The position numbers and the translations under genes are program-made. From assembly GCA_002841685.1 (NCBI GenBank), contig PHAM01000039.1, positions 1 to 17,358 of the forward strand: 17,358 nucleotides of DNA, in the 5' to 3' direction. This stretch comes from Elusimicrobia bacterium HGW-Elusimicrobia-2. GTDB lineage: Bacteria; CG03. Below the pieces are notes generated by a model. The model searched no databases, had not been told where the DNA came from, and saw only the letters and a program-made list of their open reading frames with translations. Shown piece after piece: positions 153-17,247 of the stretch (positions within the stretch are counted from its first letter, which is position 1; every line of letters starts with the position of its first letter).

Positions 153-2225
153 ATGCGTAAACTTATAATATCCGCCGCGGTTTTTATATGGGCAACAGCT
201 GTTTATTCTCAGGAGAACCGGCCTGTCCTGCAGGACATAGACTATACTGCTGTTGTGGAACAGAAGATGAAGCTTGAAAACAAGCTTGAAGCATATGTCA
301 ACGGGGTTCTTGAGAAATGGCTGGGCCCCGACAGGGCGATCGTCAAGGTTGATATAACGCCCAATGCCACAAAATCGCGCGTGGAAACGGAATCCTGGGC
401 GCAGAAACAGTCCGAGACCGGCGGGGTTGACGCGAAGGCTTCTCAAATGGCGGAGTTCCTTCCCGGTATTCCCCGCAAGCAGGATATTATGCAGAAAGAA
501 GCCTCGCCGGGCGGCGCCGGCGAGGCTTCCGGACAGAAAAGAAGCATAGAGAGCATAGTAAAAATCCCCGAATCATTTATAAAAAAAATAGACGCCACTC
601 TGATCGTTGACCAAGCGCTTAAAGATGAAGAATTTACGGCCGTAAAAAAAACCGTCGTCGATATGCTGGGGATAAATGTTGAAAGGGGGGATAAGCTGAT
701 TACAATGAGAGTCCAATTCTCGCCCTTCAGAAAGCTCCTGTCTTATCTTAGCAATCTTTATTTTTACATCGCGGGTGCCGCCATAATTCTTTCTCTTTTG
801 TTCCTGCGTTTCCTTTTTTCGTTCCTCGCGACATTAAAAGAGTTGAAAACGATGAAAACCGAAGTCGACACCAGCGGCGATCTCGCCGGCGGCGGAGGAG
901 GCGGCGGAGGAGGAGGATTCGTCGGCGAGGCAGGCGAATTTGAAAAATCTGAAAAGAAAGCCGGTGAAGAGGATAAAGAAGAAATTTCGGAAGAAATAAG
1001 AGAAAAACAACTGAAGGAATTGGTGGAATCACTTCCTGTTCCCGGCGAGGAGGTCGGAAAAATGGCATTTAAACCTTTTAAATTTGTTGAAGACAGTGAC
1101 CTGAAGAAAATAGCATATCTGCTTTCCAATGAAGAGCCGGAGGTGATAGCCACGGTGATACATTATTTTGACGACGCGAAAGCGGTGAAATTACTCAGGC
1201 TGCTTTCGGACGATAAAGATAAAAAATCGGCGGTGATAATGGCTATGACGAGAGTGCAGTTTGTCGAGCAGAACAAGATAGCGTGCCTCGAGAGGGTGCT
1301 GAAAAGGCGTATAGATCTCACCTCCGGCGGCGTTGACAGGCTGCTTGACATACTCTCTCTCATGGACGACAGCACAAAGAAAGAGGTGATGGGGCATCTC
1401 ACCGCGGAAAATCCCGAGATCGCCGAGAAGGTTGAATCCATGATGTTTTCGTTTGAGCACATAGCGCACCTTAACGATCACACTCTTCAGAGCATCCTCG
1501 CGGAGGTGAACGCCCCCGATCTTGCCGTCGCGCTGAAGGGCATGGACGAGGAGTTTAAGAATAAAATCAGGAGCAATCTCTCCGAGGCCGCGGTGAAACT
1601 CGTTGAGGAGGAACAGGAGGCCGGACGCGCGGCCACAGCCACTGACGCCCAGGTCACCGCCCAGCGCCGCGCTATAATAACAAAAATCAAGACCATGGAT
1701 GCCGAGGGGAAAATAGATCTCGGCGGCGCGAAGGAAATAGCCGTGTTTCAGGAAGAGCTGGCGTCGGTTTCCACAAAGAGCATAATGGAAGAGGTGGACG
1801 AGGAAATAGAAAAAGAAAAACAGAGAGAAGGTGCGAGGGCAAAAAGAAGGGAGAGGATCGGTATGGTGGACGGGAATGTGCCGGTTATGGATAACGAAAA
1901 ATCCTTTGAGCATTATTCAAGGGGAGAAGGGTATTTTCAGGAGGGCAATTATGAAGATGCCATTCTGGAATTTGAGGAATCAATACAGTACAATCCGGAA
2001 ATATGGCAGACATATCAGTTCATGGGATCCGCTCTCTTCGCTCAGGGCAAAGAGGTGGCCGCGGTGCGGGCATGGGAAAAATGCCTTGAGCTCAATCCCG
2101 ATAATGAAGATCTGAAAAAATGGCTGGAGGAGCATAAACACAAACAAAGCGCCCATACAGGGGAGGCTGAGAATCAACAAGAGGACGGGGCGGTATCTGA
2201 GGCTGTTCCCAGGGAGTCTGAATAA
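153..2225 (+). CDS. Minimal FliF-FliG fusion protein with C-terminal TPRs (putative rotor)
   Basis: This single 690-residue polypeptide combines membrane-ring and switch parts of a flagellar-type motor. The ATG at 153 is preferred over the in-frame TTG at 138 because it opens a clean signal peptide (about 1-20). Residues about 35-197 match the last periplasmic domain of FliF: the YVNGVLEKWLG helix, a variable Gly/Pro stretch, then ATLIVD and the GINVERGD strand. RBM1 and RBM2 are absent. A membrane helix (about 202-226) leads to ten glycines (246-255). FliG middle and C-terminal domains follow (about 310-520), with the NEEPEVIATVI, MFSF (431-434) and EVNAPDLAVALKG segments. The FliG N-terminal domain, which normally binds FliF, is missing, as expected if the proteins are fused. 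A charged helix (about 525-575) and two TPRs (about 586-655) complete it. Predicted topology is periplasmic FliF part and cytoplasmic FliG part. It couples to the next gene by TAATG. Confidence 0.88.
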   Translation: MRKLIISAAVFIWATAVYSQENRPVLQDIDYTAVVEQKMKLENKLEAYVNGVLEKWLGPDRAIVKVDITPNATKSRVETESWAQKQSETGGVDAKASQMAEFLPGIPRKQDIMQKEASPGGAGEASGQKRSIESIVKIPESFIKKIDATLIVDQALKDEEFTAVKKTVVDMLGINVERGDKLITMRVQFSPFRKLLSYLSNLYFYIAGAAIILSLLFLRFLFSFLATLKELKTMKTEVDTSGDLAGGGGGGGGGGFVGEAGEFEKSEKKAGEEDKEEISEEIREKQLKELVESLPVPGEEVGKMAFKPFKFVEDSDLKKIAYLLSNEEPEVIATVIHYFDDAKAVKLLRLLSDDKDKKSAVIMAMTRVQFVEQNKIACLERVLKRRIDLTSGGVDRLLDILSLMDDSTKKEVMGHLTAENPEIAEKVESMMFSFEHIAHLNDHTLQSILAEVNAPDLAVALKGMDEEFKNKIRSNLSEAAVKLVEEEQEAGRAATATDAQVTAQRRAIITKIKTMDAEGKIDLGGAKEIAVFQEELASVSTKSIMEEVDEEIEKEKQREGARAKRRERIGMVDGNVPVMDNEKSFEHYSRGEGYFQEGNYEDAILEFEESIQYNPEIWQTYQFMGSALFAQGKEVAAVRAWEKCLELNPDNEDLKKWLEEHKHKQSAHTGEAENQQEDGAVSEAVPRESE
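498..529. repeat. Perfect 13-bp inverted repeat with 6-base loop inside the fusion gene
   Basis: The arms 498-510 and 517-529 are exact reverse complements around the loop GCGGCG. The segment encodes residues about 116-126 (EASPGGAGEAS), in the variable stretch of the FliF-type domain. It may be a decayed palindromic insertion or a local duplication. It is in frame and creates no stop. Confidence 0.7.
888..917 (+). repeat. GGN codon tract encoding ten glycines
   Basis: Ten consecutive Gly codons (GGC/GGA mix) join the membrane helix of the FliF part to the FliG part. They most likely form a flexible linker. Length changes by slippage would stay in frame if whole codons were lost or gained. 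Confidence 0.85.
2211..2216 (+). promoter_or_regulatory. Shine-Dalgarno (AGGGAG) for the coiled-coil gene
   Basis: AGGGAG lies in the last codons of the fusion gene, 8 bases before the ATG at 2225, which itself overlaps the TAA stop by one base. This arrangement supports coupled translation of the fusion protein and the coiled-coil protein. Confidence 0.6.
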
Positions 2226-5200
2226 TGGCTGAGGGTAAGAAACCGCCGTTTACATTCGGAGGGGCGAAGCCTCCGTCGTTCGGGGGGGCTAAACCGCCGT
2301 CATTCGCAGGGGCTAAAAAGCCGGATGGGCGGGATACTCCGCAAAGTCCGTCAGGAGGATTTCCCCAGTCGCCGGCGCCGTTGAAACAGGAAAGTGACAC
2401 AGTGGCTCCGGAGATAGGCGGACAGAATTACACAAATCAGCTGAGATCAAAAATAGAACAGGCCAAGAAAACTCTTGAGGAGAGCCTCACCAGAAAAAAG
2501 GAAAAACTTGAGGCAAGGGAACTTTACTGGATGAGTACTCTCAAGGAGAAGGAACAGGAAGCGGAAAAAATCAAGCAGGAAATGAAAGCCGCGCTGGATA
2601 GAATGGAAATGAGTCAGGCCGAAAAAGAGGTGTCTTTACGCAGCGCCCTTGAGCAGTTTGAGGGGCGTTTGATGAGCGTCTCACGAGAGCTTGAAGACGA
2701 GAAGAAAAAGTCCTACAGGTCAATGCAGAAAGCCCGGGAGGAGAGCGAAGCCTCGCTCAAGGTCGAGATGGCGCTCAAAGAGATAGTGTCGTCAAAGGAC
2801 TATGAAGACAAGCTCCAGAACATGCAGGCCGCTCGTGAAAACCTGCTGAAAGACATGATCCGTCAGAAAGATAATTTTAACAGAGAGAAATCCGCTCTGG
2901 AAGAGCAGATCGGGGCGCTCAACGAGCAGGTTTACCGTCAGCGTGAGGTTATCGCGCGCCAGGAATCAAGCGAGAAGATCTTTGAGACGCAGAAGGAAAA
3001 AGAGATAGGAGCCGCGCGTCAGGACGCCAAGTCAAGGCTGGAAGACCTTGTAAATCAGGTGAAGAGCAGGGAAGATGGCGTCAGGATCAAGGAAAATGAA
3101 TTCAGGATACAGGAATTAGCGAACAGGCAGAAACTGGATAACATAAGTGATGATTTGAAGCGGAAAGAGGCGGAGTTGACGGCGTTGAGGGATCTCGCCT
3201 CCCGTCTTGAGAGAGAGTTACATGCGGCCAGGCAGGCGCTGGAAGAAGGCAATTCCAAATTCGTCAAGGAAATAGATTGGCTCAAAAAACATTTTGAGGA
3301 AGAACGCGCGTCCTGGGCCGACCGTTTCGCCCAGGAAAGCCGGATGAGGAAAGAAACGGCATCTTCCCACACGGATATTGTCAGGGACAGAGACAGCGTT
3401 TTACGCGAATTGGCCGCGGCCCGCGCGGGAGAAAAAGATCTGTCCGGGCATCTCGCGGAAAGGGAAAAAGAAATAGCGGATCTGAAGAATTCTTTTGAAA
3501 AAGAAAAGAATGAGGTTAAAAATATATACGAATCCGGCCTCAGGAACATAACGGCGGCGCGCGATGAACTCGCCCGCGAGCTTGAAGGTTACGCCGACGC
3601 GGAGAGGCGTTTTGCGGAAGAAAAAAATAAATTTACGGGGGATCTCGCGTTCGCCCAAAAGCGGCTCCGGGAAAAAGAGGGCGATGAGAGGGATCTGGCG
3701 CAGAAAATAAAGGATATATCCGCCCAAAAACTGGCTCTTGAGCAGAGGGCGGAAGATGACCGCCGCGCTTTTGAAGACGCGAAGCAGAAGCTGTATTCCC
3801 GGATAACACAGTTAAATTCCGAGAAAGAAAATTTATCAGGGGAAAAATCCGCCGCTGCCGGCAGAATTCAGCAGCTCGCGGGTGAGATATCAAGGCAAGA
3901 GCAGGAACTCGGGGCTTTACAGGCGGAGTACCGCGCAAAAGCAGGGGATTACTCACGTGAGAAGGGGATACTTGAGACCAAAATAAAAAATCTTGAAGAC
4001 GAAAAAGCCGCGCAGGAAAGGAAAACAGCCGAATACGTTTCGCAGTGCGATGCCCTGAAAGAGAAATTAAAGAAGCAGTCTGAAACCGCCGGGAAAGCTT
4101 CAGCCGAACTGATAGAGGCGAAGGAAGTTATCGGTAACCTCAATACCCGGCTTTCCGAATCAGAGAAAGAGCTGTCGGTTTTTCTTGAGAGGGAAAAACA
4201 GCTGCGGGAAAAAATAACAAACTATGAAAGAGAGATAGGGCAGCTCAATAAAAATATAGCTTCGCTCAAAGAGGAGAGCGCGAAAGGTTCCGCTTTAAAG
4301 GACAGCGAGCTGGAAAAAGCCCGCTCGGAAATCGGCGGTCTCAACGCCCGGCTCGATGGGTTCATAGAAGAAAAAAACAAACTTTCTGAAAAGTATAAGG
4401 CTATATCGGAAGAGCTTTTTGAGATGACGAAACAGCGTGATACGCTTTTCAATGAGAAAAACGCTCTGGCGGAGGAATTATCCGCTTCGCAAAAACAGCT
4501 TGAGAAACTTCTGGCTGAGGCCTCCGGGCAGGCCGTTCAGATAGCCGCATCGGGGGGAGAGATCAGCCTGCTGAATGACAAACTAAAGGCGTTGAGCACC
4601 GCCCGGCAGGCCGAAACGGTGGAATTGAAAAACAAGATACTGGAACAGCACAAAAAAATGGAAGAGCTCTTTTCCAGGATCAATGAATACAATGTAGAGA
4701 TTGAAAAGCTTAAAGCCGAACCGCGGGAGAGTGTTGAGGAATACAAGAGGCAGCTTCTTGACAGGGAAAAAGCGAATGAGCAGATGCGTTCGCAGCTTGA
4801 AGCCCTGCGCTCCGAGAAAGAGAGCGCCGCCGATAAAGACGGCATAATCAAAGAATACGACGGAAAGATCGCCGGCCTGGAAGCGGAGCTTGCCGAAACA
4901 GGCGCGGAAATAGAGAAGATGAGAGAAAGCGCCGTCCGGGCGTCTGATCTGGATTCTGAGATTGTGAGGAAAGACGCACAGCTGAAAGAAGCTTCCGTGG
5001 AACTTAAAGAACTCAGGTCCCGGATAGAATCTCTTGAAGAGGAAAAGCTCCGCAGCCGGGAAAAATTTGACGCGGAGCTCTCGGCCATCAAGGAAGAGTA
5101 TGAGCGCAGCCGGCAGGACGTTGAGGAAGGAATAGAAGCCTTTGAAAAAACAAAATCGGAATTAGAAGAGCTTAAGGCGAAAATAACCGGCCTTGCCGAG

Positions 5201-6073
5201 GAAAACGCTTCTTTGCTCATCGCGAAAGAGGATGCCGCCGCGGCGAGCGAAAAACTCAGGGATCTCACCGAGAAACAGGAGAGGGAGATAGAAGGCCTGA
5301 AAGAGCATCTGACTATGACCGTTGACGAGACCGCTGCCGCGTATGATGAGAAGATAAAAAAACTGAGCGCCGAAGCTAATGAAAACCGGGAGAAAGCGGC
5401 CGGTTTTGAAGGGTCTCTGAGAGAGGCGGAAAAAGAGATCGCGCGCCTGAAAGAAGCGTCGGTTTCCGAAAACAGACAGACGGATGAATTCAATGAGAAA
5501 CTGAAGGAACTTGGGGATATAATCGAAAAACAGAAGAAGGATATCTCCGGGAAGATGGAGTATATCAAAGACAAAGAGCTGGAATTCCACAAAATACTGA
5601 AAAAAAAGAATGAGGACATATCCGTTCTCAAGGCGCAGCTCGAACTGGGGCTGGAAGCTCTTGACAGCAAGAGCGCCGCCCCGAATGATAAGAGGCTCGC
5701 GGAGCTTCAAAGGATAAATGAGGAGATCGGAAGAAAATCAGCCCAGCGCGAGGCAATGCTCAGGGAAGAGATAGAAAGGAAGGAAAAAGAGGCGGCTGAA
5801 TACAGGAATCAGATCAGGGCCGCCGAGTCGCCGCAGCCATCCGATCATCCCGTCGTGCCGCCGGAACTCGAGGACGAGATCAAATCCAGGACAGCGGAAG
5901 CCCTCCGGCTCAAATCCGAGATGGAAAGAGCCAGAAAATATTACGAGAGGCTCGAGAGTATTATAAAAAAACAGGATGAGAAAATCACGCAGCTCCAGAA
6001 GAAAGACGGCGGCGGGAGCATCATTAAAAAGCATGACATCATTCCGGACGATGACGGGGATATAAAATTTTGA
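2225..6073 (+). CDS. Giant coiled-coil protein (1282 aa), putative motor scaffold
   Basis: I do not recognise a named family. There is no signal peptide or membrane helix, so it should be cytoplasmic. Residues 1-65 are Gly/Pro-rich and contain three tandem 8-residue units (FGGAKPPS, FGGAKPPS, FAGAKKPD) from residue 11. Residues about 70-1195 are almost uninterrupted Glu/Lys/Leu-rich sequence typical of long coiled coils. A Pro-rich break lies at about 1201-1216, then another helix to about 1260 and a tail with GGG and the acidic PDDDGD near the end. The gene starts on the stop of the FliF-FliG fusion and ends 17 bp before motA, so it is probably part of the same machine. Possible roles are a filamentous scaffold, a tether between rotor and cell body, or a polarity factor. 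AglZ of Myxococcus gliding is a loose functional parallel, but no receiver domain is present here. Orthology cannot be judged by eye because coiled coils resemble one another. Confidence 0.8.
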   Translation: MAEGKKPPFTFGGAKPPSFGGAKPPSFAGAKKPDGRDTPQSPSGGFPQSPAPLKQESDTVAPEIGGQNYTNQLRSKIEQAKKTLEESLTRKKEKLEARELYWMSTLKEKEQEAEKIKQEMKAALDRMEMSQAEKEVSLRSALEQFEGRLMSVSRELEDEKKKSYRSMQKAREESEASLKVEMALKEIVSSKDYEDKLQNMQAARENLLKDMIRQKDNFNREKSALEEQIGALNEQVYRQREVIARQESSEKIFETQKEKEIGAARQDAKSRLEDLVNQVKSREDGVRIKENEFRIQELANRQKLDNISDDLKRKEAELTALRDLASRLERELHAARQALEEGNSKFVKEIDWLKKHFEEERASWADRFAQESRMRKETASSHTDIVRDRDSVLRELAAARAGEKDLSGHLAEREKEIADLKNSFEKEKNEVKNIYESGLRNITAARDELARELEGYADAERRFAEEKNKFTGDLAFAQKRLREKEGDERDLAQKIKDISAQKLALEQRAEDDRRAFEDAKQKLYSRITQLNSEKENLSGEKSAAAGRIQQLAGEISRQEQELGALQAEYRAKAGDYSREKGILETKIKNLEDEKAAQERKTAEYVSQCDALKEKLKKQSETAGKASAELIEAKEVIGNLNTRLSESEKELSVFLEREKQLREKITNYEREIGQLNKNIASLKEESAKGSALKDSELEKARSEIGGLNARLDGFIEEKNKLSEKYKAISEELFEMTKQRDTLFNEKNALAEELSASQKQLEKLLAEASGQAVQIAASGGEISLLNDKLKALSTARQAETVELKNKILEQHKKMEELFSRINEYNVEIEKLKAEPRESVEEYKRQLLDREKANEQMRSQLEALRSEKESAADKDGIIKEYDGKIAGLEAELAETGAEIEKMRESAVRASDLDSEIVRKDAQLKEASVELKELRSRIESLEEEKLRSREKFDAELSAIKEEYERSRQDVEEGIEAFEKTKSELEELKAKITGLAEENASLLIAKEDAAAASEKLRDLTEKQEREIEGLKEHLTMTVDETAAAYDEKIKKLSAEANENREKAAGFEGSLREAEKEIARLKEASVSENRQTDEFNEKLKELGDIIEKQKKDISGKMEYIKDKELEFHKILKKKNEDISVLKAQLELGLEALDSKSAAPNDKRLAELQRINEEIGRKSAQREAMLREEIERKEKEAAEYRNQIRAAESPQPSDHPVVPPELEDEIKSRTAEALRLKSEMERARKYYERLESIIKKQDEKITQLQKKDGGGSIIKKHDIIPDDDGDIKF
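2255..2326 (+). repeat. Three tandem 24-bp units encoding FGGAKPPS-like repeats
   Basis: Units at 2255-2278, 2279-2302 and 2303-2326 each begin TTC and encode F-G/A-GAK-P/K-P-S/D. The first two are identical as peptides but differ at several synonymous positions, so the peptide appears to be kept by selection. Repeated short motifs of this kind often act as multivalent docking sites, which is inference here. Confidence 0.8.
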
Positions 6074-6090
6074 AAAAAGGCGGCTGAACA

Positions 6091-6873
6091 ATGGATTTTG
6101 CGACAATAATAGGTTTTATAGCGGGTTTGGGCCTTATAGTAGCGGCCATTGTCGGCCGGGTGGGGGTGGCGGGTTTTCTGACGAGTTTTATAGATCTGCC
6201 GTCGGTAGCCATAACTCTCGGCGGCACATTCGCCGCTACGATGGTCAATTATTCTTTTCACGAACTTGTCAGCGTTTTCGCCATAGCCAAAAAAGTGTTC
6301 ACGCAGAAAGACGAAAACGCGATAGGGATAATAGACACGATCGGGAGGCTCACAAAGAAAGCCAGAACGCAGGGCCTGCTGGCGATCGAGCAGGAGATAA
6401 AGGAATTACCCAACCCTTTTCTCCGTCACGGTTTCTCCCTTGTTCTGGCCAATATTGACGCCGAAACAATAAGGGCGGAGCTTGAAACAGAGATAACTTT
6501 TATACAGGAGCGCCACAAGCTGGGCCAGGAAATATTTTTGACAATGGGCACATTCGCTCCCGCTTTCGGTATGCTCGGCACCATCATGGGCCTTATAATG
6601 ATGCTCGCGAATTTAGAAGACCAGTCCGTTATCGCCAGCGGTATGGCTGTGGCTCTCATAACAACGCTTTACGGCGCGCTGGCGGCGAATCTCATATTCC
6701 TGCCGATATCGGGGAAACTCAAAAGAAAGAGCGAGGATGAGGTGCTGGTGAAGGAAATAATCATAGAAGGTATAATCTCAATGAAAAGCGGCGCTATACC
6801 GTCAATAATAGAAGCTAAGCTCAAGGCCTATCTGCCGCCGAAAAAAAGAGAAAGAAAAGTAATAGAAAAATAG
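6091..6873 (+). CDS. motA: MotA-type stator channel subunit
   Basis: This 260-residue protein is the MotA/PomA half of an ion-driven stator, expected as a pentamer around a MotB dimer in the inner membrane. It has four membrane helices at about 5-25, 36-55, 150-174 and 184-206. The third carries the family signature PAFGMLGTIMGLI, with Pro157 in the position of the conserved channel proline, and the fourth ends with Pro205. The cytoplasmic loop has charged residues around 126-143 (RAELETEITFIQER) where MotA contacts FliG. The length is normal for the proton or sodium MotA family (about 250-295). An AAGG sequence lies about 10 bases before the ATG, and motB starts one base after the stop. The alternative of an ExbB/TolQ homologue is unlikely because the order of helices and the long loop between helices 2 and 3 are those of MotA. 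The driving ion cannot be read from this sequence. Confidence 0.93.
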   Translation: MDFATIIGFIAGLGLIVAAIVGRVGVAGFLTSFIDLPSVAITLGGTFAATMVNYSFHELVSVFAIAKKVFTQKDENAIGIIDTIGRLTKKARTQGLLAIEQEIKELPNPFLRHGFSLVLANIDAETIRAELETEITFIQERHKLGQEIFLTMGTFAPAFGMLGTIMGLIMMLANLEDQSVIASGMAVALITTLYGALAANLIFLPISGKLKRKSEDEVLVKEIIIEGIISMKSGAIPSIIEAKLKAYLPPKKRERKVIEK

Positions 6874-6874
6874 T

Positions 6875-7900
6875 ATGGCGAAGAAAAAAACTTCCCAGAC
6901 TCTGCAGGTGGGACCCTCGGCGCCGGGATGGATGGTGACATACGGCGATCTCATGACGCAGCTTCTGATATTCTTTGTCATGATGTTCGCGCTGGCCTCG
7001 GCCATGAACGAACTGCAGCTGATAAATCTGCAAAAAAAAATGGAGCAGTATGTTAAGAGGGAAAATCTCGTCAACGATGTTTCGTTTGATGTGGATGAGA
7101 GGGGGCTCGTGGTTTCCTTTCACGGAAATAAAATGTACGAGAAGGGGGAAGCTGAGATCAAACCTGAGGCATTGAAAGCGCTTTCTAATCTCGCGGCTTT
7201 CGTGCGGCCCCAGCCCAATGAAGTGCGGATAGAGGCTCATGCGGATCTGACGGAAAGCCCCGGGAAATATATATCGCTGTGGAATCTTTCTTCAACGCGG
7301 GCGTCATTCATAGCGAAACAGCTCATACAAAACATATATTTCCCCCCGTACCGCCTGTCGTCGGCGGGTTATGCCGAACAGAAACCTTACATTAAAAAGG
7401 ACGGCGAAACATATAAGACGCTTGAGGCGCGCAGCGCTGATCTGCTCAAAACCGCGTCATCCTCTTTTTTTCATGAGGCCAACCGGATGGTAGAGATGAA
7501 CATAAATAATCAGGTTTTGGAAAAAAACAAAAGCTTTGAACAGAAATACAAAAACGACCCCAATCATTCTGTTCTCGTGCGCATGGCCAGAAACAATTAT
7601 CAGGGCGGCCTTGAAAGAAAATATGCCGCGATCTCCCTGAAGATGAAAGAAAGCTCCGTGTTCAAGGACCGCTCCGAAAAGTGGGCGGAGGAAGCCCGGA
7701 TCTTTTTTAAATTCGCTGACCACGAAGTTGAGATCCTCGCGGCGAAAGAGGATTATATCAAGGCGCAGTTTTATGACAGATTGCAGAAAGAAATAGTGAC
7801 TATGGCCAATCTTTCGCCGTCGCAGCAGAACAGGAACCGCCGCGTGGATATTATCATCGCCAGGATCTCGCCTAAGGCGGCCAAGGAAAGGCTGCTGTAA
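6875..7900 (+). CDS. motB: MotB-type stator with large insertion in OmpA-like domain
   Basis: This is the peptidoglycan-anchored stator subunit paired with MotA. The N-terminus carries the MotB membrane helix (about 19-42), reading WMVTYGDLMTQLLIFF, with Asp25 as the ion-carrying residue. The usual YAD is YGD. The OmpA-like domain follows: DERGLVVSFHGNKMYEKGEAEI at 74-95, RIEAHAD in place of the usual IEGHTD, LWNLSSTRA, RLSSAGYAEQKP and, only at 320-327, NRRVDIII. In ordinary MotB the GY..-P and NRRVD segments lie close together. Here about 140 residues separate them (about 172-312), mostly charged and helical, which makes the protein 341 residues. It has no Shine-Dalgarno and starts one base after motA, so translation is probably coupled. 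The long insert could change how the stator holds peptidoglycan or add an envelope partner. Confidence 0.9.
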   Translation: MAKKKTSQTLQVGPSAPGWMVTYGDLMTQLLIFFVMMFALASAMNELQLINLQKKMEQYVKRENLVNDVSFDVDERGLVVSFHGNKMYEKGEAEIKPEALKALSNLAAFVRPQPNEVRIEAHADLTESPGKYISLWNLSSTRASFIAKQLIQNIYFPPYRLSSAGYAEQKPYIKKDGETYKTLEARSADLLKTASSSFFHEANRMVEMNINNQVLEKNKSFEQKYKNDPNHSVLVRMARNNYQGGLERKYAAISLKMKESSVFKDRSEKWAEEARIFFKFADHEVEILAAKEDYIKAQFYDRLQKEIVTMANLSPSQQNRNRRVDIIIARISPKAAKERLL

Positions 7901-7936: not shown

Positions 7937-9835
7937 ATGACGAATAAGCTCACGGGGAATTTTGTAAAAGCCGTTTTTTTTCTGATACCGGTCGCGGCGG
8001 TGCCTTTTCTGAACGATTCTTTCGCTTTGCCCAAAGCCATCCTGCTCTGGATGTTTATTCCGCTTTTTTTTGCCGCGGACAGCTTCGCCGCGGACAGAGA
8101 GGAGTCACCGGTTTATTTTGTGACGGGCATCTATTTCCTGCTCTCTCTTTTTTCAATATATCCCGTGCTCAGTTTTACAGGGCTTTACAGATATTATTTC
8201 AGCGGTTTTTTCTCGCTTTTAGCGGGCGTGGCGCTTTTCAGGATTTTAAGAAATTTCCCGCAGGCCGCTGTAAAAAAACAGCTGGGTTTTCTGCTTTTCT
8301 CGGCGCTTTTAACCTGCGCGGCTGTTTTTGCCGGTGGCGGGGAAAGGATTTCTTCCACCTTCGGCAATCCCAATTTTTACGGCGGCGTTCTGGCGGCGGT
8401 CTCGCCCTACGCTCTTTATTTTTCGATTTCAAAGCCGGGCTATATCATCCATTTTATGTTTTTCGCGATAGCTCTTTTAATGACTCATTCCCGCGCCTCG
8501 TGGATGGGGGTGTCCGCCGGGATTATATTTTTTATTTTCTGCGCGGGCAAAAAACACGGCTTGTCAGTGATGAGAATGGCCGCCACGCCTAAGCTGAAAG
8601 CCCGCCCCGGGCGGATCCGCCACGGCAGACGAAGCGCTTCGCAAGGCTCAGCCGCGCGGAATGTTCTGGCGGCTCTGGCGCTGATCATAGCGGGGGCGTT
8701 TATAAGCTCGCCGCGCTTTTCGGGAGATATCGTCAGGAGAGCCGTTTCCATCTTTGATCTATCGGAAGCCGATATCGTCTCAAGGTTTGAGGGCTATGCG
8801 GCAAGCCTGGCCATGTTCGCCGAGAAACCGCTTTTCGGCCACGGGCCGGAAAGTTTTTCAATCCTTTTCCGTTCTCACGCGCCGGTTTCTTTTATCCGTC
8901 AGACAGGCGGCCTCGCGCATGCGGGATACAGTCACTGCTGGCCGCTCCAGATCCTCACCGAAACGGGCCTGGCCGGATTCGGCGCATGGTTTTTGCTGAT
9001 ATTTGTTCTGATCAAAAAAGCGATAGCATCAAAAGAGCTGTTTAAAAAAGCCGCGGGGGCCTCGGTGATAGCTTATGCCGTCACAAATCTTTTCGCTTTT
9101 CCGTCTATTACCGAGCTGCTAATTTTTTGGTTTTCCGCTGCCGTGATATACGGTCCGAGGCAGGTTCCGCCTTTTGCCGGGAATATTTTTACGCGCAAAG
9201 GAAGATTGTTCGCCGCTGCCGCCTCTTTTTTGATCTTGTCGGCGCCGCTTGTTTCCGAGATATTGTTTGTCAAAGCAGTCAAGTCTCCCGATAACGAGAA
9301 GGCTTATGCCCTGTTTCGCCGCGCGGCTTTTTTCCTGCCGGCGGATTATCACCTGATGAACGCGGGGAAAAGGTGTATTCTGATTTATAATAATACGAAT
9401 TTGCCGTTATGGCTTGACCGGGGAGATTATTTTTTTGAAAAGCTGGCGAAAAAAAATCCGCGCCACGCGCTGGCTCTAAACGGCCTGGGCGTGTCCGCCC
9501 GAGAAAAATTAGAGCTGTACAAAGATAAAAAGTACGCTGGTATCGCTGAAACTTTTTTTAAGAAAGCCATAGAGAATGACCCTTATCTGAAAGCGGCGCG
9601 TCTCAATCTCGCGCTCCTTCTTGAAAAAGAAGGCCGTTTCGCGCAGGCCCTCAGTCAGTATGAACAAGCCCTGGAAATTTACAGAGATGACCAGCAGATG
9701 CTTTTCAATTCCGGCGTCGTCAGCGTTAACGCCGGAAATCCGAAAAAAGCCCTTGAGTTCTGGTACAGGCTCAGGGAGATAAATCCCGGCTACGGGAAAC
9801 TCAGTGGATATATAAAGCAGGCCGAGGCGATTTGA
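7937..9835 (+). CDS. O-antigen-ligase-like polytopic membrane protein with C-terminal TPRs
   Basis: This 632-residue protein has about ten membrane helices in its first 445 residues, followed by a soluble part with TPR repeats (about 500-625). Family signs of the WaaL/Wzy_C superfamily are FGNPNFYGG (142-150), the THSRASWMG segment near 183-190, FGHGPESF (300-307), and HAGYSHCWPLQILTETGLAG (328-347), which holds the His and Glu-Gly positions seen in O-antigen ligases. Such proteins transfer or polymerise polysaccharide, or glycosylate proteins, at the periplasmic face of the inner membrane. The exact substrate cannot be read. The loop at about 205-242, between two helices, is long and very basic and contains a palindromic repeat. 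The gene lies 36 bp after motB with no terminator visible, so it may be co-transcribed with the motor genes. No good Shine-Dalgarno precedes the chosen ATG. Confidence 0.8.
   Translation: MTNKLTGNFVKAVFFLIPVAAVPFLNDSFALPKAILLWMFIPLFFAADSFAADREESPVYFVTGIYFLLSLFSIYPVLSFTGLYRYYFSGFFSLLAGVALFRILRNFPQAAVKKQLGFLLFSALLTCAAVFAGGGERISSTFGNPNFYGGVLAAVSPYALYFSISKPGYIIHFMFFAIALLMTHSRASWMGVSAGIIFFIFCAGKKHGLSVMRMAATPKLKARPGRIRHGRRSASQGSAARNVLAALALIIAGAFISSPRFSGDIVRRAVSIFDLSEADIVSRFEGYAASLAMFAEKPLFGHGPESFSILFRSHAPVSFIRQTGGLAHAGYSHCWPLQILTETGLAGFGAWFLLIFVLIKKAIASKELFKKAAGASVIAYAVTNLFAFPSITELLIFWFSAAVIYGPRQVPPFAGNIFTRKGRLFAAAASFLILSAPLVSEILFVKAVKSPDNEKAYALFRRAAFFLPADYHLMNAGKRCILIYNNTNLPLWLDRGDYFFEKLAKKNPRHALALNGLGVSAREKLELYKDKKYAGIAETFFKKAIENDPYLKAARLNLALLLEKEGRFAQALSQYEQALEIYRDDQQMLFNSGVVSVNAGNPKKALEFWYRLREINPGYGKLSGYIKQAEAI
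8591..8641. repeat. Palindromic repeat element, copy A (inside the ligase-like gene)
   Basis: The 25 bases at 8615-8639 are the exact reverse complement of 16068-16092, and weaker similarity continues through 8602-8614. The segment contains two perfect 12-bp palindromes, GGCGGATCCGCC (8610-8621) and CGAAGCGCTTCG (8630-8641). It is read in frame as the basic stretch ARPGRIRHGRRSAS in a loop between membrane helices. The first ten bases, 8591-8600, also match 16040-16049 in direct orientation. Confidence 0.75.
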
Positions 9836-9902: not shown

Positions 9903-10346
9903 ATGGCAGAAAGAAGGATCCACCTCAGATTTCCGACCTTATCGGTTATAAAAACCGTTGAGATAAGCAGTTCCGACGGTAAGACGGACATACCCGCCAT
10001 AATGTGCGATGTGTCAGTCGGCGGGATGGCCATGATCACTTTTCTGCCGCTGCCTAAAAATTCCGATATAGTGCTGGATTTGAAGATGCCGGATATCAAT
10101 CTCAGAAAAGTCACAGCGAGAATAGTGCGTGTCGAGGAGAAAAACGGCACTTTTCTGATAGCTCTCAAATTCCGCTCTCTGGATAATACCGTTAAGAAAA
10201 AAATAAACGCTATGGCTCTTGACTGGCAGAAATGCGAGGAGAGACAGGCGGTCGGCGAAAAGACGGAATGCCGGAATTGCGCGTATTACAATCTCTGCAA
10301 TAAAGAAGCGAAAAAAAAGCATGCCGCGAATCAATGTTCTGCCTGA
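9903..10346 (+). CDS. PilZ-domain protein with Cys-rich tail (putative c-di-GMP receptor)
   Basis: This 147-residue soluble protein has a PilZ domain over residues about 3-98. Both c-di-GMP-binding motifs are intact: RxxxR (Arg5 to Arg9, in RRIHLRF) and DxSxxG (Asp36 to Gly41, in DVSVGGM). It should therefore bind c-di-GMP. After the domain comes a tail with five cysteines at 111, 123, 126, 132 and 145, in a C-x2-C-x5-C-x12-C pattern from 123. Such a pattern could hold a metal or Fe-S cluster, but I know no named domain for it. It is the first gene after a clear promoter and Shine-Dalgarno, and its last 26 bases overlap the start of mutL. PilZ proteins such as YcgR slow flagella by touching FliG or MotA, so the motor genes upstream are candidate targets. 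That is inference, because a separate promoter and the ligase-like gene lie between them. Confidence 0.87.
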   Translation: MAERRIHLRFPTLSVIKTVEISSSDGKTDIPAIMCDVSVGGMAMITFLPLPKNSDIVLDLKMPDINLRKVTARIVRVEEKNGTFLIALKFRSLDNTVKKKINAMALDWQKCEERQAVGEKTECRNCAYYNLCNKEAKKKHAANQCSA

Positions 10347-12033
10347 AGAGGTCAGAAATTATATTTCCTGCGGTGAGGTCATAGAATCACCGGCTTCCGT
10401 TGTAAAAGAGTTAGTTGAGAACGCCCTTGACGCCGGGGCTGACAGGATAGACGTAAAAGCGCTTGAGGCTGGACTGGGTTTCATAAGCGTGACGGACAAC
10501 GGTTCCGGCATGGATTTTGAAGACCTGAAGTTCTCGCTCGAACCTTTTGCCACAAGCAAGATCAGAGTAAAAAACGATATTTCATCGGTGCAGTCGCTGG
10601 GCTTCAGGGGTGAGGCTCTGGCGTCAATCGCTAATGTCTCTGCCGTTAAGATATTTTCCTCCATGGGCTCCACGGGCGCTGTGATTTTAAGCGAAGGCGG
10701 CAGAGAGATAGATCACAGGGAGTTTTCCTGCCCCAGGGGAACCACCGTTGAGGTGAGAAAACTTTTTTTTAACGCTCCTGTACGAAAGAGATTCCTTAAA
10801 AGCCCGAAATACATGAACGGCGAGATACTGAGAGTCGTGAGGGAATATGCGCTTTCCCGGCCGGAAATTGTTTTTTCACTCAGGATAGACGATAAAAATT
10901 ATTTTGACGATCTTTCGTCGTCCGACGACGAGAAAGAGAGGGTGCGGAAGATCTTCGGTTTTGAAAACGCCGATTACGCGGCTTTGGAAAACCCCATGAT
11001 GGGCCTGCGCTGTTTTGCCTATCCTGAGGATTACAAGTCCTCCCGAAGGTGGCAGTTTATTTTTGTCAACAGAAGGCCTATAAGCAATGCCGCTTTTCTC
11101 AAGGCGGCGGAGAACGCTTTTGAGGGCTATCTGCCGCGGGGAAAGCATCCCCCTCTTTTTATTTATCTGACCGCGGCCAGCGGGCTCATAGATGTCAATG
11201 TCCATCCTGCTAAAAGAGAGATAAGGTTTCAGAGCCCCCGCGCTTTTTATCAGATGGTCTATGATGTCCTGAGGAACAAATATTCCAGGAATCAGCCGGC
11301 CGTTTATCCTCTGGCGATCGGGGCTGACACCACCGCGGCGCTTTTACCGCGCGGCGCAGAGGCTTCAGCGGATATTCCCTCCGCATCGCTTTTCGAAAAG
11401 GAGGCTGTTAAAGAATCCGTCGCCCTCGAACCGCTTCCGGGTACGCCTGTCGGCCCGCGTTGGGACAATTTCCGCTATGTCGGAAAATCGCACGGGAAGT
11501 TCCTTGTTTTTTCAACTTTTGACGCCATACACATAATGGATTTTCACGCCGCCGCCGAAAGGATAAATTACGAAAAAATAAAACAAAAAATAAAACAGGG
11601 CAATGTCGCTTCCCAGAAACTCCTTGTCCAGATAGAGGTAAAACTTTCCCCCGATGAAGCCGCTGCCCTTCAGAGCAACAGCGATATTCTTATCAAACTC
11701 GGTCTGGCGCTGAAATATTACCGCGGCAGTGTTTTTATAAGCGCTGTTCCCGCGGGTTTTACCGGCAGCGAAAAAGACATGCTCGAGAAAATAAGCGCAT
11801 GTCTCCTTGACGGCAAAAAGCATCATGATATCTTTGAAAGTCTCGCGGATCGCGCCGTGAAGATCATTGCATGCCACATGTCTTTCCGCGCAGGGGACGA
11901 TATAAAGCCCCATGACGCCGAGACTTTGATACAGGAACTGAAAAAATGCTCCGAGCCGCTGAGATGCCCTCACGGGCGCCCGGTGATGTTCAGTATTCCG
12001 GTCGCAAAAATAGATTCACTCCTCCGTCGATGA
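10321..12033 (+). CDS. mutL: DNA mismatch repair protein MutL
   Basis: MutL links mismatch recognition by MutS to strand incision and repair. This copy has 570 residues, normal to slightly short for the family. The ATG at 10321 is chosen because MPRINVLPEEV aligns with the usual MutL N-terminus; an upstream in-frame ATG at 10219 would add 34 unrelated residues inside the PilZ gene. The N-terminal GHKL ATPase shows GEVIESPASVVKELVEN with Glu30 and Asn34, DNGSGM (59-64), FATSKI and GFRGEAL (94-100). The C-terminal dimerisation domain has the endonuclease-type metal motifs DFHAAAERINYE (407-418; the usual Gln is Phe), ACH (517-519) and CPHGRP (549-554), so it is probably a nicking MutL as in bacteria without MutH. 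No mutS is in the window. It overlaps pilZ by 26 bases and mnmG by the ATGA junction. Confidence 0.96.
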   Translation: MPRINVLPEEVRNYISCGEVIESPASVVKELVENALDAGADRIDVKALEAGLGFISVTDNGSGMDFEDLKFSLEPFATSKIRVKNDISSVQSLGFRGEALASIANVSAVKIFSSMGSTGAVILSEGGREIDHREFSCPRGTTVEVRKLFFNAPVRKRFLKSPKYMNGEILRVVREYALSRPEIVFSLRIDDKNYFDDLSSSDDEKERVRKIFGFENADYAALENPMMGLRCFAYPEDYKSSRRWQFIFVNRRPISNAAFLKAAENAFEGYLPRGKHPPLFIYLTAASGLIDVNVHPAKREIRFQSPRAFYQMVYDVLRNKYSRNQPAVYPLAIGADTTAALLPRGAEASADIPSASLFEKEAVKESVALEPLPGTPVGPRWDNFRYVGKSHGKFLVFSTFDAIHIMDFHAAAERINYEKIKQKIKQGNVASQKLLVQIEVKLSPDEAAALQSNSDILIKLGLALKYYRGSVFISAVPAGFTGSEKDMLEKISACLLDGKKHHDIFESLADRAVKIIACHMSFRAGDDIKPHDAETLIQELKKCSEPLRCPHGRPVMFSIPVAKIDSLLRR

Positions 12034-13871: not shown

Positions 13872-15988
13872 AAAATATCAGATTCGGTATTTTCGCGAAA
13901 TACCTCTCAGCTCTGGCGCTTATCTCGCTTGTTCCTCTGCTTCTGATGGGGATACGGCTTATAGATATAAACAGGATAACCCTGAAGCGCATGGTTATGG
14001 AAGAGCACATCAGCGTTGCATCATTTGCCGCTTATAAAGTGGACAGTTATTTTGACAGCCTTTCAAAGAATCTGTCGCTTATAATTCAGTCCCATTCTCT
14101 CGGCGATCTTTCGGGGGATCAGCTTCCGCGGACTCTCAGGGCACTGATCAGTTCATCCCGGAGCATAGAAAGCGCCGCGCTGGTATCCCGTTCCGGCAGA
14201 GAAAAGATCAAATTTTACCATCCCGACCTGGGGCAGGATTCGCCGGCTGTCGATTATTCCCGAAAGGACGAATTCAAGTCCGCTCTCTCCGGGAGCCCCG
14301 CCGCGGGAAGCCCTTATATCAGCGCCGGAGGCGTGCGCATAAACGCGGCCTATCCGTCAGGGGACGGCATATTGTTTATTACGGCTTCTCTGGATGATCT
14401 CTTTTCGGAAATCAAAAACACGAGTGTCGGCCGCAGCGGGCGCGTTATTCTAATAGACGGGGAAGGCCGTATATTGGCCTCGGCCGGCGAAGCTTTTGGA
14501 AGTGTCCGAGCGCATCCGCTGGTCGCTGATTTTATCAGTTCCCGCGTTTCCGCCGCGAGAGATTTTGTTCTTGACGGCAGAAAAATGTCCGGCGCCTATG
14601 TGCCTGCTAAAATCATGGGCTGGGCTGTTATCGTGGAAGAGCCGTATGAGGACGCTTATTATTCGTTATACCTTATGAAGAGAAACGCCGCCCTGTCGCT
14701 TCTGGCCGCGGCCCTCGGCGCACTTCTCATGGCGTTTTTCGCGGCGAAATCCGTGACAAAACCCATGAGAGAACTGATTGAGGCGGCATCGTTCATAGCT
14801 GGCGGCGATTTTTCAAGAGGCGTAAAAGTTTCTTCGGGAGATGAGATCGGCGAGCTGGCCGCGACTTTCAATAAAATGAGCGCCAAACTCAAAGAATACA
14901 ATGAAATGCAGATAGACAGGATAATAGCGGAAAAAACAAAAACAAAAGCGGTTATATTTTCAATTTTCGACGGTCTCATCCTGACTGACTACGATGGGAA
15001 GATCCTTCTGGCGAATGCCCAGGCTGAGCGGATTTTAGGGCTTTCGGGATTGAAGGAAGGAAACCGTATTACTGATTATTTGAAAGATTGCGACGCCGGG
15101 CTCAGGGATTTTTTTGAGGAAGTCGCAAAAAACAGGGGCAAAAACATTGTGCGGGAATTTTCTTTCGGACAAGGCCGAAGCGGAGTGAGTTTCGCCAAAG
15201 CGCAGACGGCGTCAGTGCGCACGGAAGCGGGCGCGGATCTCGGCACGGTGACAGTTTTCAGAGATATAAGCATTGAAAGGGAATTGGACGGCATGAAGGA
15301 ATTCTTTATGCAGGCGATAGCGCATGACTTGAGAAATCCGCTGACATCCATCAGCGGTTTTATAGAGCTCATGGGCATAAAAAGCGCGGGCGGTTTGAGC
15401 GAAAAACAGAAGCATTATCTTTCAGCCATGGCCAAGGAAACAGAAAGGCTGCAGGGCATGATAAACGATATCCTGGACGCCGCGAAACTTGAAGCCGGCA
15501 AGATGAGTCCCGTGATAAAAAGCGTGCCCGTTAATTTTCTCGTCTCAAACGTCATTGAGGGTTTATCGGGCATGGCGGCAAAAAAGGGTGTTGAGCTCAA
15601 AAGCGTTATGCCCGCGGAAAGCCCCAGAGTCAACGCTGACGGCGAACTCATACAGAGGGTGATAGTGAATCTTGTAGCGAATGCTGTTAAATTCACCCCG
15701 AAAGGCGGAGAAGCGCTGGTGAAAGTCTCCCGGGTCCGGAACGCCGTGCGCGTGGAGGTGCGGGACACCGGGCCGGGGATGCCGAAAGATTCCTGCGAAA
15801 AAATATTCGACAAATTCCAGCGCCTTCCTGGGGCGCTTTCCGGAGGCACGGGCATAGGCTTGACGATATCAAGAGAAATAGTGAAAGCGCACTCGGGAAA
15901 AATATGGGCGGAATCGGAACCGGGGAAAGGCAGTAATTTTATTTTTGAAATACCGGAAGGCCTGCCTCAATCTGACAGGGAATGCTGA
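13868..15988 (+). CDS. Membrane sensor histidine kinase (Cache-HAMP-PAS-HisKA-HATPase)
   Basis: This 706-residue kinase has a first membrane helix at about 11-29, a periplasmic sensor region at about 30-270, and a second helix at about 273-294. The sensor region resembles dCache, with GRSGRVILIDGEGRILA at 188-204. HAMP follows (about 295-348, ending DEIGELAATFNKMSAKL), then a PAS-like domain (about 355-470), then HisKA with AHDLRNPLTS, where His486 should be phosphorylated. The ATPase domain shows the N box (NLVANAVKF, 601-609), G1 (DTGPGM), F (IFDKFQ) and G2 (GGTGIGLTIS) motifs. It is therefore a complete, active-looking kinase. No response regulator is in the window, so its output is unknown. 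It overlaps mnmG by 4 bases and the following FecR gene by 7, which suggests that the kinase and the secreted protein are made together. Confidence 0.93.
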   Translation: MKNIRFGIFAKYLSALALISLVPLLLMGIRLIDINRITLKRMVMEEHISVASFAAYKVDSYFDSLSKNLSLIIQSHSLGDLSGDQLPRTLRALISSSRSIESAALVSRSGREKIKFYHPDLGQDSPAVDYSRKDEFKSALSGSPAAGSPYISAGGVRINAAYPSGDGILFITASLDDLFSEIKNTSVGRSGRVILIDGEGRILASAGEAFGSVRAHPLVADFISSRVSAARDFVLDGRKMSGAYVPAKIMGWAVIVEEPYEDAYYSLYLMKRNAALSLLAAALGALLMAFFAAKSVTKPMRELIEAASFIAGGDFSRGVKVSSGDEIGELAATFNKMSAKLKEYNEMQIDRIIAEKTKTKAVIFSIFDGLILTDYDGKILLANAQAERILGLSGLKEGNRITDYLKDCDAGLRDFFEEVAKNRGKNIVREFSFGQGRSGVSFAKAQTASVRTEAGADLGTVTVFRDISIERELDGMKEFFMQAIAHDLRNPLTSISGFIELMGIKSAGGLSEKQKHYLSAMAKETERLQGMINDILDAAKLEAGKMSPVIKSVPVNFLVSNVIEGLSGMAAKKGVELKSVMPAESPRVNADGELIQRVIVNLVANAVKFTPKGGEALVKVSRVRNAVRVEVRDTGPGMPKDSCEKIFDKFQRLPGALSGGTGIGLTISREIVKAHSGKIWAESEPGKGSNFIFEIPEGLPQSDREC

Positions 15989-17247
15989 AAAATACTTTTG
16001 CCGCTGTTGTTTTTTTTACAGCCGTATTTCTTTGCGCGGAAGCTGAAAGTGCGCCGGGGCGTGCTGAAAGCGCTTCGTCTGCCGTGGCGGATGCGCCGGG
16101 GCGTGAGGTTATCGTTGAAGTAAAGATTCCGCCAGGCACCACCACGGAGATCATCGCCCAGAAATATCTCAAGGATCCCTCCCGTATAAAGGAACTCCGG
16201 AGGCGCAATAAATTTCTCCCTAAAGACGATAAAGATGTTGTTAAGAGCCAGTTTGTGAACATACCGAAAGATCTCATGAAAGAAAAAGTGTGCGATACCG
16301 CCGCCGTTAGTCCCCTTGTGCTGACAAGAAAAGAAAAGGAGATCAGGTGGGAAAAGCTCCAGCCCACCCGCCGGCTTTTCCCCGGAGACGGGATAATGAC
16401 TTTATCCGACGGATCGGCGAGACTTGAATTCCTGGCGGGAGGAAATCTTTTTTTGGCGCCCGACTCGCTGGTTTTTCTCAGTGAAAATGAAGAACGCCCT
16501 GCCGCGAGTTTTCTCGCCGGCAATATCAGCGCGGATGATGTCCGGATGGCCAGCCGCGGGGTGAAGGTGAGCCCTGCCGGCGGGGCTCAGTATAATATAA
16601 ACACCTCGGCGGATAAGAACGTGCGTTTGAGCGTTCACCGCGGTGAGGTGGATGTCACCGCGCAGAAAAAAACGGTGAAGGTGAAAGAGGGCTTCAGGAC
16701 TCTTGTGGCTTTTGATTCCGCCCCGGAAGCGCCATTGCCTTTACCGGAAGCGATAAGTGATCTGAATAATCTGCGCGAACTTGAAGAGGGAGAGAAATAT
16801 CATTTACAGATAGCTTCGGATGAAAAATTCAAAGATATCATAAAAGTCAAATATATCACGCGGTCGGCGGATGTGAAAGCGGCGCAGCATGCGCTTCCGC
16901 CGGGAGGTTATTATTTAAGGGTCGCGCTTCTCTCAAAAGACGGTTTTGAGAGCAAGTGGAGCTCTTTTTATTATTTTGTGAAGGGGACAGAGAGCAGGGA
17001 TGTGATCAAAGTGGAAGCCATAACCGATATCGGCGACGGCAAGCTGGAGGTGAAGGGATCCTGTCCGGAAATAATAGATGTTGTTATAAACGGCCATCCC
17101 GGTAAAACGCTGCAGGGAGACAAATTCGTATGCGTGTTCAGAGTGGGTGAGGCGGAGCTCTTCACTGTGTTTATCAAGACGGAGTCGGGGTTTTTGTCCA
17201 AGCGCTATAAGAGGTCTCCTTCCAATCTCTGGCTGCCGATAGACTGA
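15982..17247 (+). CDS. Secreted LysM/FecR-domain protein
   Basis: This 421-residue protein begins with a signal peptide (about 1-21, likely cleaved after AEA). Residues about 44-98 look like a LysM-type unit (IPPGTTTEIIAQKYLKDPSR, NIPKDL), which would bind peptidoglycan. Residues about 125-245 form a FecR-like beta domain: GDGIMTLSDGSARLEFLAGG, then FLAGNISADD, VSPAGGAQYNINTS, LSVHRGEVDVTA and VKVKEGFRTLV. The rest (about 250-421) contains beta-sandwich-like sequence (YHLQIASDEKF, LPPGGYYLRVALLSKDGF) typical of repeats attached to FecR in diderm environmental bacteria. There are no membrane helices beyond the signal, so it should be periplasmic or surface-exposed. It overlaps the sensor kinase gene by 7 bases and could report on or shape the envelope for it; this is inference. 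Residues 20-42 are encoded by a repeat element. Confidence 0.75.
   Translation: MLKNTFAAVVFFTAVFLCAEAESAPGRAESASSAVADAPGREVIVEVKIPPGTTTEIIAQKYLKDPSRIKELRRRNKFLPKDDKDVVKSQFVNIPKDLMKEKVCDTAAVSPLVLTRKEKEIRWEKLQPTRRLFPGDGIMTLSDGSARLEFLAGGNLFLAPDSLVFLSENEERPAASFLAGNISADDVRMASRGVKVSPAGGAQYNINTSADKNVRLSVHRGEVDVTAQKKTVKVKEGFRTLVAFDSAPEAPLPLPEAISDLNNLRELEEGEKYHLQIASDEKFKDIIKVKYITRSADVKAAQHALPPGGYYLRVALLSKDGFESKWSSFYYFVKGTESRDVIKVEAITDIGDGKLEVKGSCPEIIDVVINGHPGKTLQGDKFVCVFRVGEAELFTVFIKTESGFLSKRYKRSPSNLWLPID
16040..16105. repeat. Palindromic repeat element, copy B (inside the FecR gene)
   Basis: Positions 16068-16092 are the exact reverse complement of 8615-8639, and similarity continues to about 16104 with one gap. 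The same region also holds a 14-bp direct repeat, TGCGCCGGGGCGTG, at 16050-16063 and 16092-16105, and its first bases (16040-16049) match copy A in direct orientation. It encodes AESAPGRAESASSAVADAPGRE just after the signal peptide, in two copies of an APGR-containing unit. Confidence 0.75.

Follow-up and report, generated by a model that had tools for sequence, protein, structure and literature searches.

FliG is known as the torque ring of the flagellum. The described systems closest to the one reported here are the AglRQS-Glt machinery of Myxococcus, in which a flagellar-type proton channel works without a flagellum (PMC3858216), the ion-driven GldL/GldM motor of Bacteroidota (PMC8986121), and the FliF-FliG fusion of Chlamydia (PMC4768692). 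Type IX secretion has been described as Bacteroidetes-specific (PMC7463736). The window analyzed here (17,358 nucleotides, nt) is the entire contig PHAM01000039.1 (C79) of Elusimicrobia bacterium HGW-Elusimicrobia-2 (GCA_002841685.1), a genome of 1.78 Mb in 94 contigs that is 96% complete. On its + strand, four genes lie head to tail at 153–7900, encoding a rotor fusion of FliF and FliG parts, a giant coiled-coil protein, MotA and MotB. No description of a FliG motor lacking a flagellum, or of this system in Elusimicrobia, was found in the open-licence literature (no preprints).

Because the FliM-binding motif of the rotor is lost, its acidic pair and the proton-binding Asp of MotB are kept, and FlhA and FliM/FliN are absent, sequence gives good support to a non-flagellar FliG-MotAB motor rather than a flagellar remnant. 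This suggests that the flagellar rotary engine has been reused for a job other than swimming in an uncultured, small phylum-level lineage, represented here by 16 genomes.

The rotor and its stators

All four genes that an earlier note had described as contiguous rotor, scaffold and stator genes are present, and the translational coupling it proposed is plausible, the gaps between successive genes being only −1, +17 and +1 nt. The rotor protein consists, in order, of a signal peptide, an RBM3-like domain of FliF, one transmembrane (TM) helix, FliG_M, FliG_C and a TPR pair (Table 1), with Pfam matches to FliG_C (2.5e-24), FliG_M and TPR_2 and a PDB profile match to 1lkv (2.4e-56). While the claimed homology to FliF and FliG holds, the two form a single fused gene in which only the last ring domain of FliF remains. 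A full MS-ring protein has RBM1-3 and two TM helices; here RBM1, RBM2 and the first FliF TM helix are missing, as is FliG_N. The RBM3-like domain aligns with residues 404–475 of Salmonella FliF (profile match to 6scn, 1.9e-4) and shows an alternation of helices and strands in the predicted structure, and its match to YscJ_FliF_C (7.4e-5, residues 53–189) is slightly below the cut-off of that family. A structural search with this part returned no strong FliF score, which was not counted as evidence against the relationship.

The earlier note also spoke of a true FliG-type rotor, and both FliG domains bear this out. The predicted FliG_C superposes on FliG of the solved MotAB-FliG complex 8ucs with 1.2 Å over 88 residues, the contact with MotA itself being predicted. 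The EHPQ motif of FliG_M is the FliM-binding site. None of the 38 fusions has it intact, whereas each of the 21 flagellar control rows (19 distinct genes), like T. maritima, retains it. The acidic pair (E. coli positions 288/289) is EE in 11 of 11 window-type rotors, all of which also retain K264, and is kept in most other rotors of the group; R281 and R297 are lost throughout. Judged by these residues, the pattern is that of a putative rotor that has lost its contact with FliM and partly kept that with the stator.

Arg90 and Glu98 are both present in the MotA of the window and vary in other loci. The proton-binding Asp is present in the MotB of every single-MotB locus (alignment of 32 MotB proteins), and the MotA/MotB pair, this Asp and the peptidoglycan-binding domain together make up a stator of the flagellar kind.

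The protein encoded between rotor and stator has the composition of a coiled coil (41% E/K/Q/R, 6% P+G) with a raised 3.5-residue periodicity and no hydrophobic segment. Counterparts of about 900–1300 amino acids (aa) occupy the same position across the group, constant in size and character and strongly divergent in sequence. In one relative (G003; L032 2547–6500) the gene is broken into two frames, by either a sequencing error or a genuine frameshift.

Table 1. Features of the window and related loci elsewhere
Feature	Position	Strand	Basis
Rotor fusion, 690 aa from ATG 153	153..2225	+	Pfam domains; PDB profile; ortholog alignment
FliF RBM3-like periplasmic domain, LPGIP motif, RGD..F end	225..722	+	YscJ_FliF_C; FliF 6scn; predicted model
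Single TM helix region of rotor	750..857	+	Hydrophobic stretch in alignment; model helix 202-236
FliG middle domain, EHPQ replaced by EEPE	1107..1316	+	FliG_M 2.4e-8; motif table
FliG C-terminal (torque) domain	1398..1721	+	5.8e-26; K264 and acidic pair present, R281 and R297 not
C-terminal cytoplasmic TPR pair	1908..2105	+	TPR_2 2.1e-12
Giant coiled-coil protein, 1282 aa, no TM helix	2225..6073	+	Composition, periodicity, hydrophobicity
MotA stator subunit, Arg90 and Glu98 equivalents present	6091..6873	+	PF01618 4e-30; solved MotA 8ucs 7e-57
MotB stator subunit with plug helix, peptidoglycan-binding OmpA domain and additional C-terminal stretch	6875..7900	+	MotB_plug 6e-12; OmpA 6e-11
MotB proton-binding Asp25 codon (TYGDLMT)	6947..6949	+	Alignment of 32 MotB proteins
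Wzy_C/O-antigen-ligase-like membrane protein with TPRs, possible accessory	7937..9835	+	Wzy_C 5e-12
PilZ-domain protein, possible cyclic di-GMP link	9903..10346	+	PilZ 9e-11
Loci with paralogous two-MotB arrangement	L005, L046, L047, L048, L049, L050, L052, L053, L054, L097
SprA-like translocon gene of source genome	G000:C93 (L125 2992-8133); others in L126-L132

Flagellar genes

A FlhA-family protein is required by flagella and injectisomes alike. FlhA (PF00771) is missing from the source genome, as from the group as a whole (0 of 16 genomes), and the FliM/FliN domain FliMN_C (PF01052) is absent from the source genome and from all 13 group genomes tested; both searches were positive in four flagellated controls (E. 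coli, B. subtilis, Caulobacter and Thermotoga). The absence of FliM/N and of the export gene flhA beside the motor genes therefore extends to the whole genome, and judged by these genes a complete flagellar set elsewhere was not found. The window contains no rod, hook or flagellin gene; genome-wide these three were not searched separately, but they would be implausible without FlhA. The parts are thus homologs of flagellar motor proteins, yet the machine lacks several parts that define a flagellum.

These results bear on whether the locus is a decaying flagellar remnant, or a fusion of the Chlamydia type that serves an injectisome. Its parts are homologous to those of the flagellum, and Chlamydia provides a natural case of FliF fused to FliG, but the RBM3-like domain retained here is missing from the Chlamydia protein (PMC4768692), no FlhA-family protein was found in any of the 16 genomes, and the genes are intact, present in several copies and syntenic over a phylum-level group. 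The injectisome was rejected for want of a FlhA-family protein and the remnant in view of intact genes and group-wide synteny; we consider either extremely improbable.

Conservation and paralogous loci

Orthologs of the rotor were found in 12 of the 16 genomes (one a fragment) with 33–92% identity. The order PorV-rotor-coiled coil-MotA-MotB is kept in seven other genomes (L032, L034, L036, L037, L040, L041, L059), so that the conservation of gene order which the earlier note asked about does extend across several families. As these loci show, the four-gene set proposed there is correct as listed and the unit is larger, an outer-membrane gene of PorV type lying directly upstream in relatives.

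Most well-covered genomes of the group have two or three rotor loci (three in the source genome), the paralogous ones mostly with MotA and MotB. In paralogous loci, tandem MotB genes follow MotA, except in L046, where the second lies farther downstream. In 10 of 10 tandem-MotB loci one subunit carries Asp at the proton position and the other Asn, Thr or Ser, a pairing that spans several families and one genome outside the group (G223). By sequence, this suggests a heterodimeric stator with a single proton site, in which the two subunits would pair. Both B-type subunits of Agl retain the Asp.

That the second MotB of these loci never has the proton Asp, and that FliG has lost R281 and R297, could be taken to mean that ring and stators form a static or sensory scaffold, which gauges tension or anchors the envelope and does not rotate under load. 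Each locus has one Asp-bearing MotB, however, and the conserved channel helices of MotA are kept; a scaffold of this kind appears very improbable.

Outside the group, RBM3-TM-FliG fusions were found in seven of roughly 275 sampled genomes, three without FliM/N (G223, G082, G058) and four that also carry it (G132, G137, G274, G203). A PorV-like gene lies directly upstream of the fusion in G082 and G274 too. In G223 (L097) and G082 (L098) the fusion, MotA and MotB adjoin a histidine-kinase-like gene. G137 and G274 (L102-L106) contain additional RBM3-FliG fusions: one type is preceded by SLH and TPR domains, and next downstream of another is a second FliG-domain gene that stands alone. In a FliG tree all flagellar controls fall to the same side of one split; the support for this split is weak (0.33) and compatible with either a single or a multiple origin of the fusions.

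Probable outer-membrane partners

Immediately ahead of the rotor gene stands one that encodes a FadL-like barrel of the PorV/PorQ family followed by about 200 residues of TPR. It matches family NF033709 with 133 bits (cut-off 90), so that PorV, one mark of type IX secretion, is represented; it does not reach the threshold of NF033710, the narrower PorV equivalog, and its match to solved PorV (6h3i_F) is 3.4e-10. In G003 the PorV-type gene is 12 nt upstream of the rotor gene. In the source genome it stands at the end of another contig (G000:C77, L031), where the assembly is broken at a dispersed repeat. The PorV-like gene of CS1-C068 (L059 8658–10297) is split over two frames, by sequencing error or a genuine frameshift.

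The dispersed repeat occupies positions 1–116 of the window and has about twenty copies in the genome; it is also found in relatives of the same genus, often at contig ends. It is probably what broke the assembly on the 5' side of the rotor gene. The open frame that precedes ATG 153 begins with this repeat and is unlikely to be part of the rotor protein.

Farther upstream, L059, L062, L063 and L066 each have an open frame about 1900–2900 aa long. It contains fn3, Big_5 and FG-GAP repeats in L066 and fn3 with a weak Por_Secre_tail in L059; no domain was recognized in that of L062. The second motor locus of the source genome encodes a CHU_C type IX signal domain (L004 9709–10134; 30.2 bits, cut-off 27), which represents a second mark of type IX secretion, namely substrates with a C-terminal signal domain.

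A SprA-like protein of about 1700 aa was found in 15 of the 16 genomes. It scores 149–176 bits, below the NCBI cut-off of 200 for true SprA, and its profile matched no PDB entry other than SprA itself (6h3i/6h3j, 8.8e-26); this match came from the profile search alone, single-sequence PDB searches giving none. In G000 and G003 the contig that begins with the gene after the second motor locus bears the SprA-like gene; this proximity was not used as evidence since the arrangement was not seen in other families. SprA-like matches also occurred in 31 of 80 diverse genomes, and the family may be wider than Bacteroidota. Going by these predicted genes, the PorV-family barrel with TPRs, the giant surface protein in several genomes and the SprA-like translocon are new associations of the motor.

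Proposed machine

With slightly better than even confidence, we propose an ion-driven rotary motor that moves surface proteins, in secretion, gliding or both, the role that GldL/GldM has in Bacteroidota. Fused rotor proteins would assemble into a ring, with the RBM3-like domain in the periplasm, one helix through the inner membrane and FliG in the cytoplasm. MotA/MotB stators, anchored to peptidoglycan through MotB and driven by a flow of ions, probably protons, would push FliG and turn the ring, the load being something other than rod and filament. The PorV-family barrel, its TPR tail reaching into the periplasm, probably couples the turning ring to the outer membrane, the presumed site of the SprA-like translocon and the giant adhesin-like proteins, and surface proteins would thereby be exported or moved by the motor. 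A scaffolding or positioning role may fall to the cytoplasmic coiled coil and the TPRs. The weakest step is that the RBM3 ring reaches the outer membrane via the TPR tail, because the operon holds no other obvious periplasmic link.

A more specific possibility, which we rate a little short of even, is that this is a distinct trans-envelope machine in which a freed FliG rotor turns an RBM3 ring driving a PorV/SprA-type apparatus; a cell would have several of these motors, those of the paralogs with an asymmetric stator, the proton residue being lost from its second MotB.

Several observations weigh against a motor for surface proteins. Its load is deduced from gene neighbourhood. The RBM3 match is modest (in the 1e-4 range) and the predicted rotor model has an overall predicted template modelling score (pTM) of only 0.30. 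With R281/R297 lost and MotA Arg90 replaced by Ser in three orthologs, the torque contact would be unlike the flagellar one. The SprA-like gene is outside the motor operon, and motor and translocon are not strictly linked: SprA-like matches occurred in 26 of 73 sampled genomes without a fusion, which makes co-occurrence alone weak evidence, and two fusion-bearing genomes (G058, G203) have none. That GldM (GldM_1st) was detected in none of the 16 genomes speaks for the proposal only weakly, since GldM evolves fast and no known type IX genome was among the controls; GldL was not searched. GldN was likewise found in none of the 16, by a search that was positive in no control; GldK was not searched.

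The same neighbourhood could belong to a gliding motor like Agl-Glt of Myxococcus, which moves a focal-adhesion complex tied to an AglZ-like coiled coil and involves no secretion. A giant cytoplasmic coiled coil is present in the operon of all complete window-type loci, TPRs occur on both the rotor and the outer-membrane protein, and giant adhesin-like proteins are adjacent. The machine described here has true MotA/MotB stators with OmpA anchoring and a FliG rotor, however, and to our knowledge neither is known in AglRQS. We regard such a motor as unlikely. Likeness to Agl, which the earlier note had pointed out, accordingly stands for function and fails for parts, Agl having no FliG rotor. 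Of the loads suggested there, namely gliding, polysaccharide movement and energizing of the envelope, the PorV-type barrel, the giant protein and the SprA-like translocon favour gliding or secretion by a surface-protein motor and make polysaccharide less likely.

Downstream genes

The gene that follows MotB in the window, encoding the Wzy_C/O-antigen-ligase-like protein, is also the next gene in two other genomes of the group (L034/L058, L037/L062). Together with the PilZ protein next to it, and with the precedent of Agl-Nfs, which moves glycan on Myxococcus spores (PMC3858216), it raises the idea that surface polysaccharide is what the motor moves or exports. No Wzy_C-like relative is found at the corresponding place in L041/L066, however, and PorV and the protein adhesin are the better conserved outer-membrane partners, so that a polysaccharide load seems improbable.

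The PilZ gene overlaps a listed MutL frame (10219–12033), whose real start is probably farther downstream. At 15982–17247, after a dCache-HAMP-PAS histidine kinase, lies a gene for a 421-aa protein without Pfam match. Promoter and terminator scans gave nothing informative.

Implications

If the proposed motor works, FliG-MotAB torque needs no switch complex, export gate or filament, and the flagellar motor core can serve as a module. Structural work would gain a minimal rotor-stator of three proteins, outer-membrane secretion or gliding beyond Bacteroidota would have a new candidate for its source of power, and there would be evidence on which came first, motor core or export apparatus. The tandem MotB pair with one lost aspartate bears on whether one proton site per stator suffices.

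Comparison with known systems

With the flagellar motor, the machine shares a homologous RBM3-like domain, FliG_M/FliG_C, MotA, and MotB with its proton Asp and OmpA anchor. It differs in having no RBM1/RBM2, FliG_N, FliM/FliN or FlhA, in the loss of EHPQ, in a one-chain rotor with TPRs and in an operon that includes a coiled coil and a PorV-type barrel. Several FliG proteins in one genome are also known from Borrelia, whose FliG1 acts in periplasmic flagella (PMC7225975), whereas the genomes of the group have neither FlhA nor FliM/N.

The nearest known fusion is that of Chlamydia, in which a shortened FliF is likewise joined to FliG. It is shortened in the opposite direction, keeping part of the SctJ-like domains without an RBM3-like one (PMC4768692); the rotor of the window does the reverse and is accompanied by MotA/MotB.

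AglRQS-Glt shares a flagellar-type proton channel without a flagellum and a large coiled coil, and its AglQ and AglS are two MotB-like subunits per motor, as in the paralogous loci (PMC3858216). Agl differs in lacking a FliG rotor, and in the paralogous loci one MotB is always without the Asp. With GldL/GldM (PMC8986121) the resemblance lies in an ion-driven motor, in SprA-like, PorV and CHU_C/Por tails within the lineage and in giant surface proteins nearby; there GldL/GldM provide the motor, whereas here peptidoglycan-anchored MotA/MotB and a FliG ring, with no GldM detected, would take that place.

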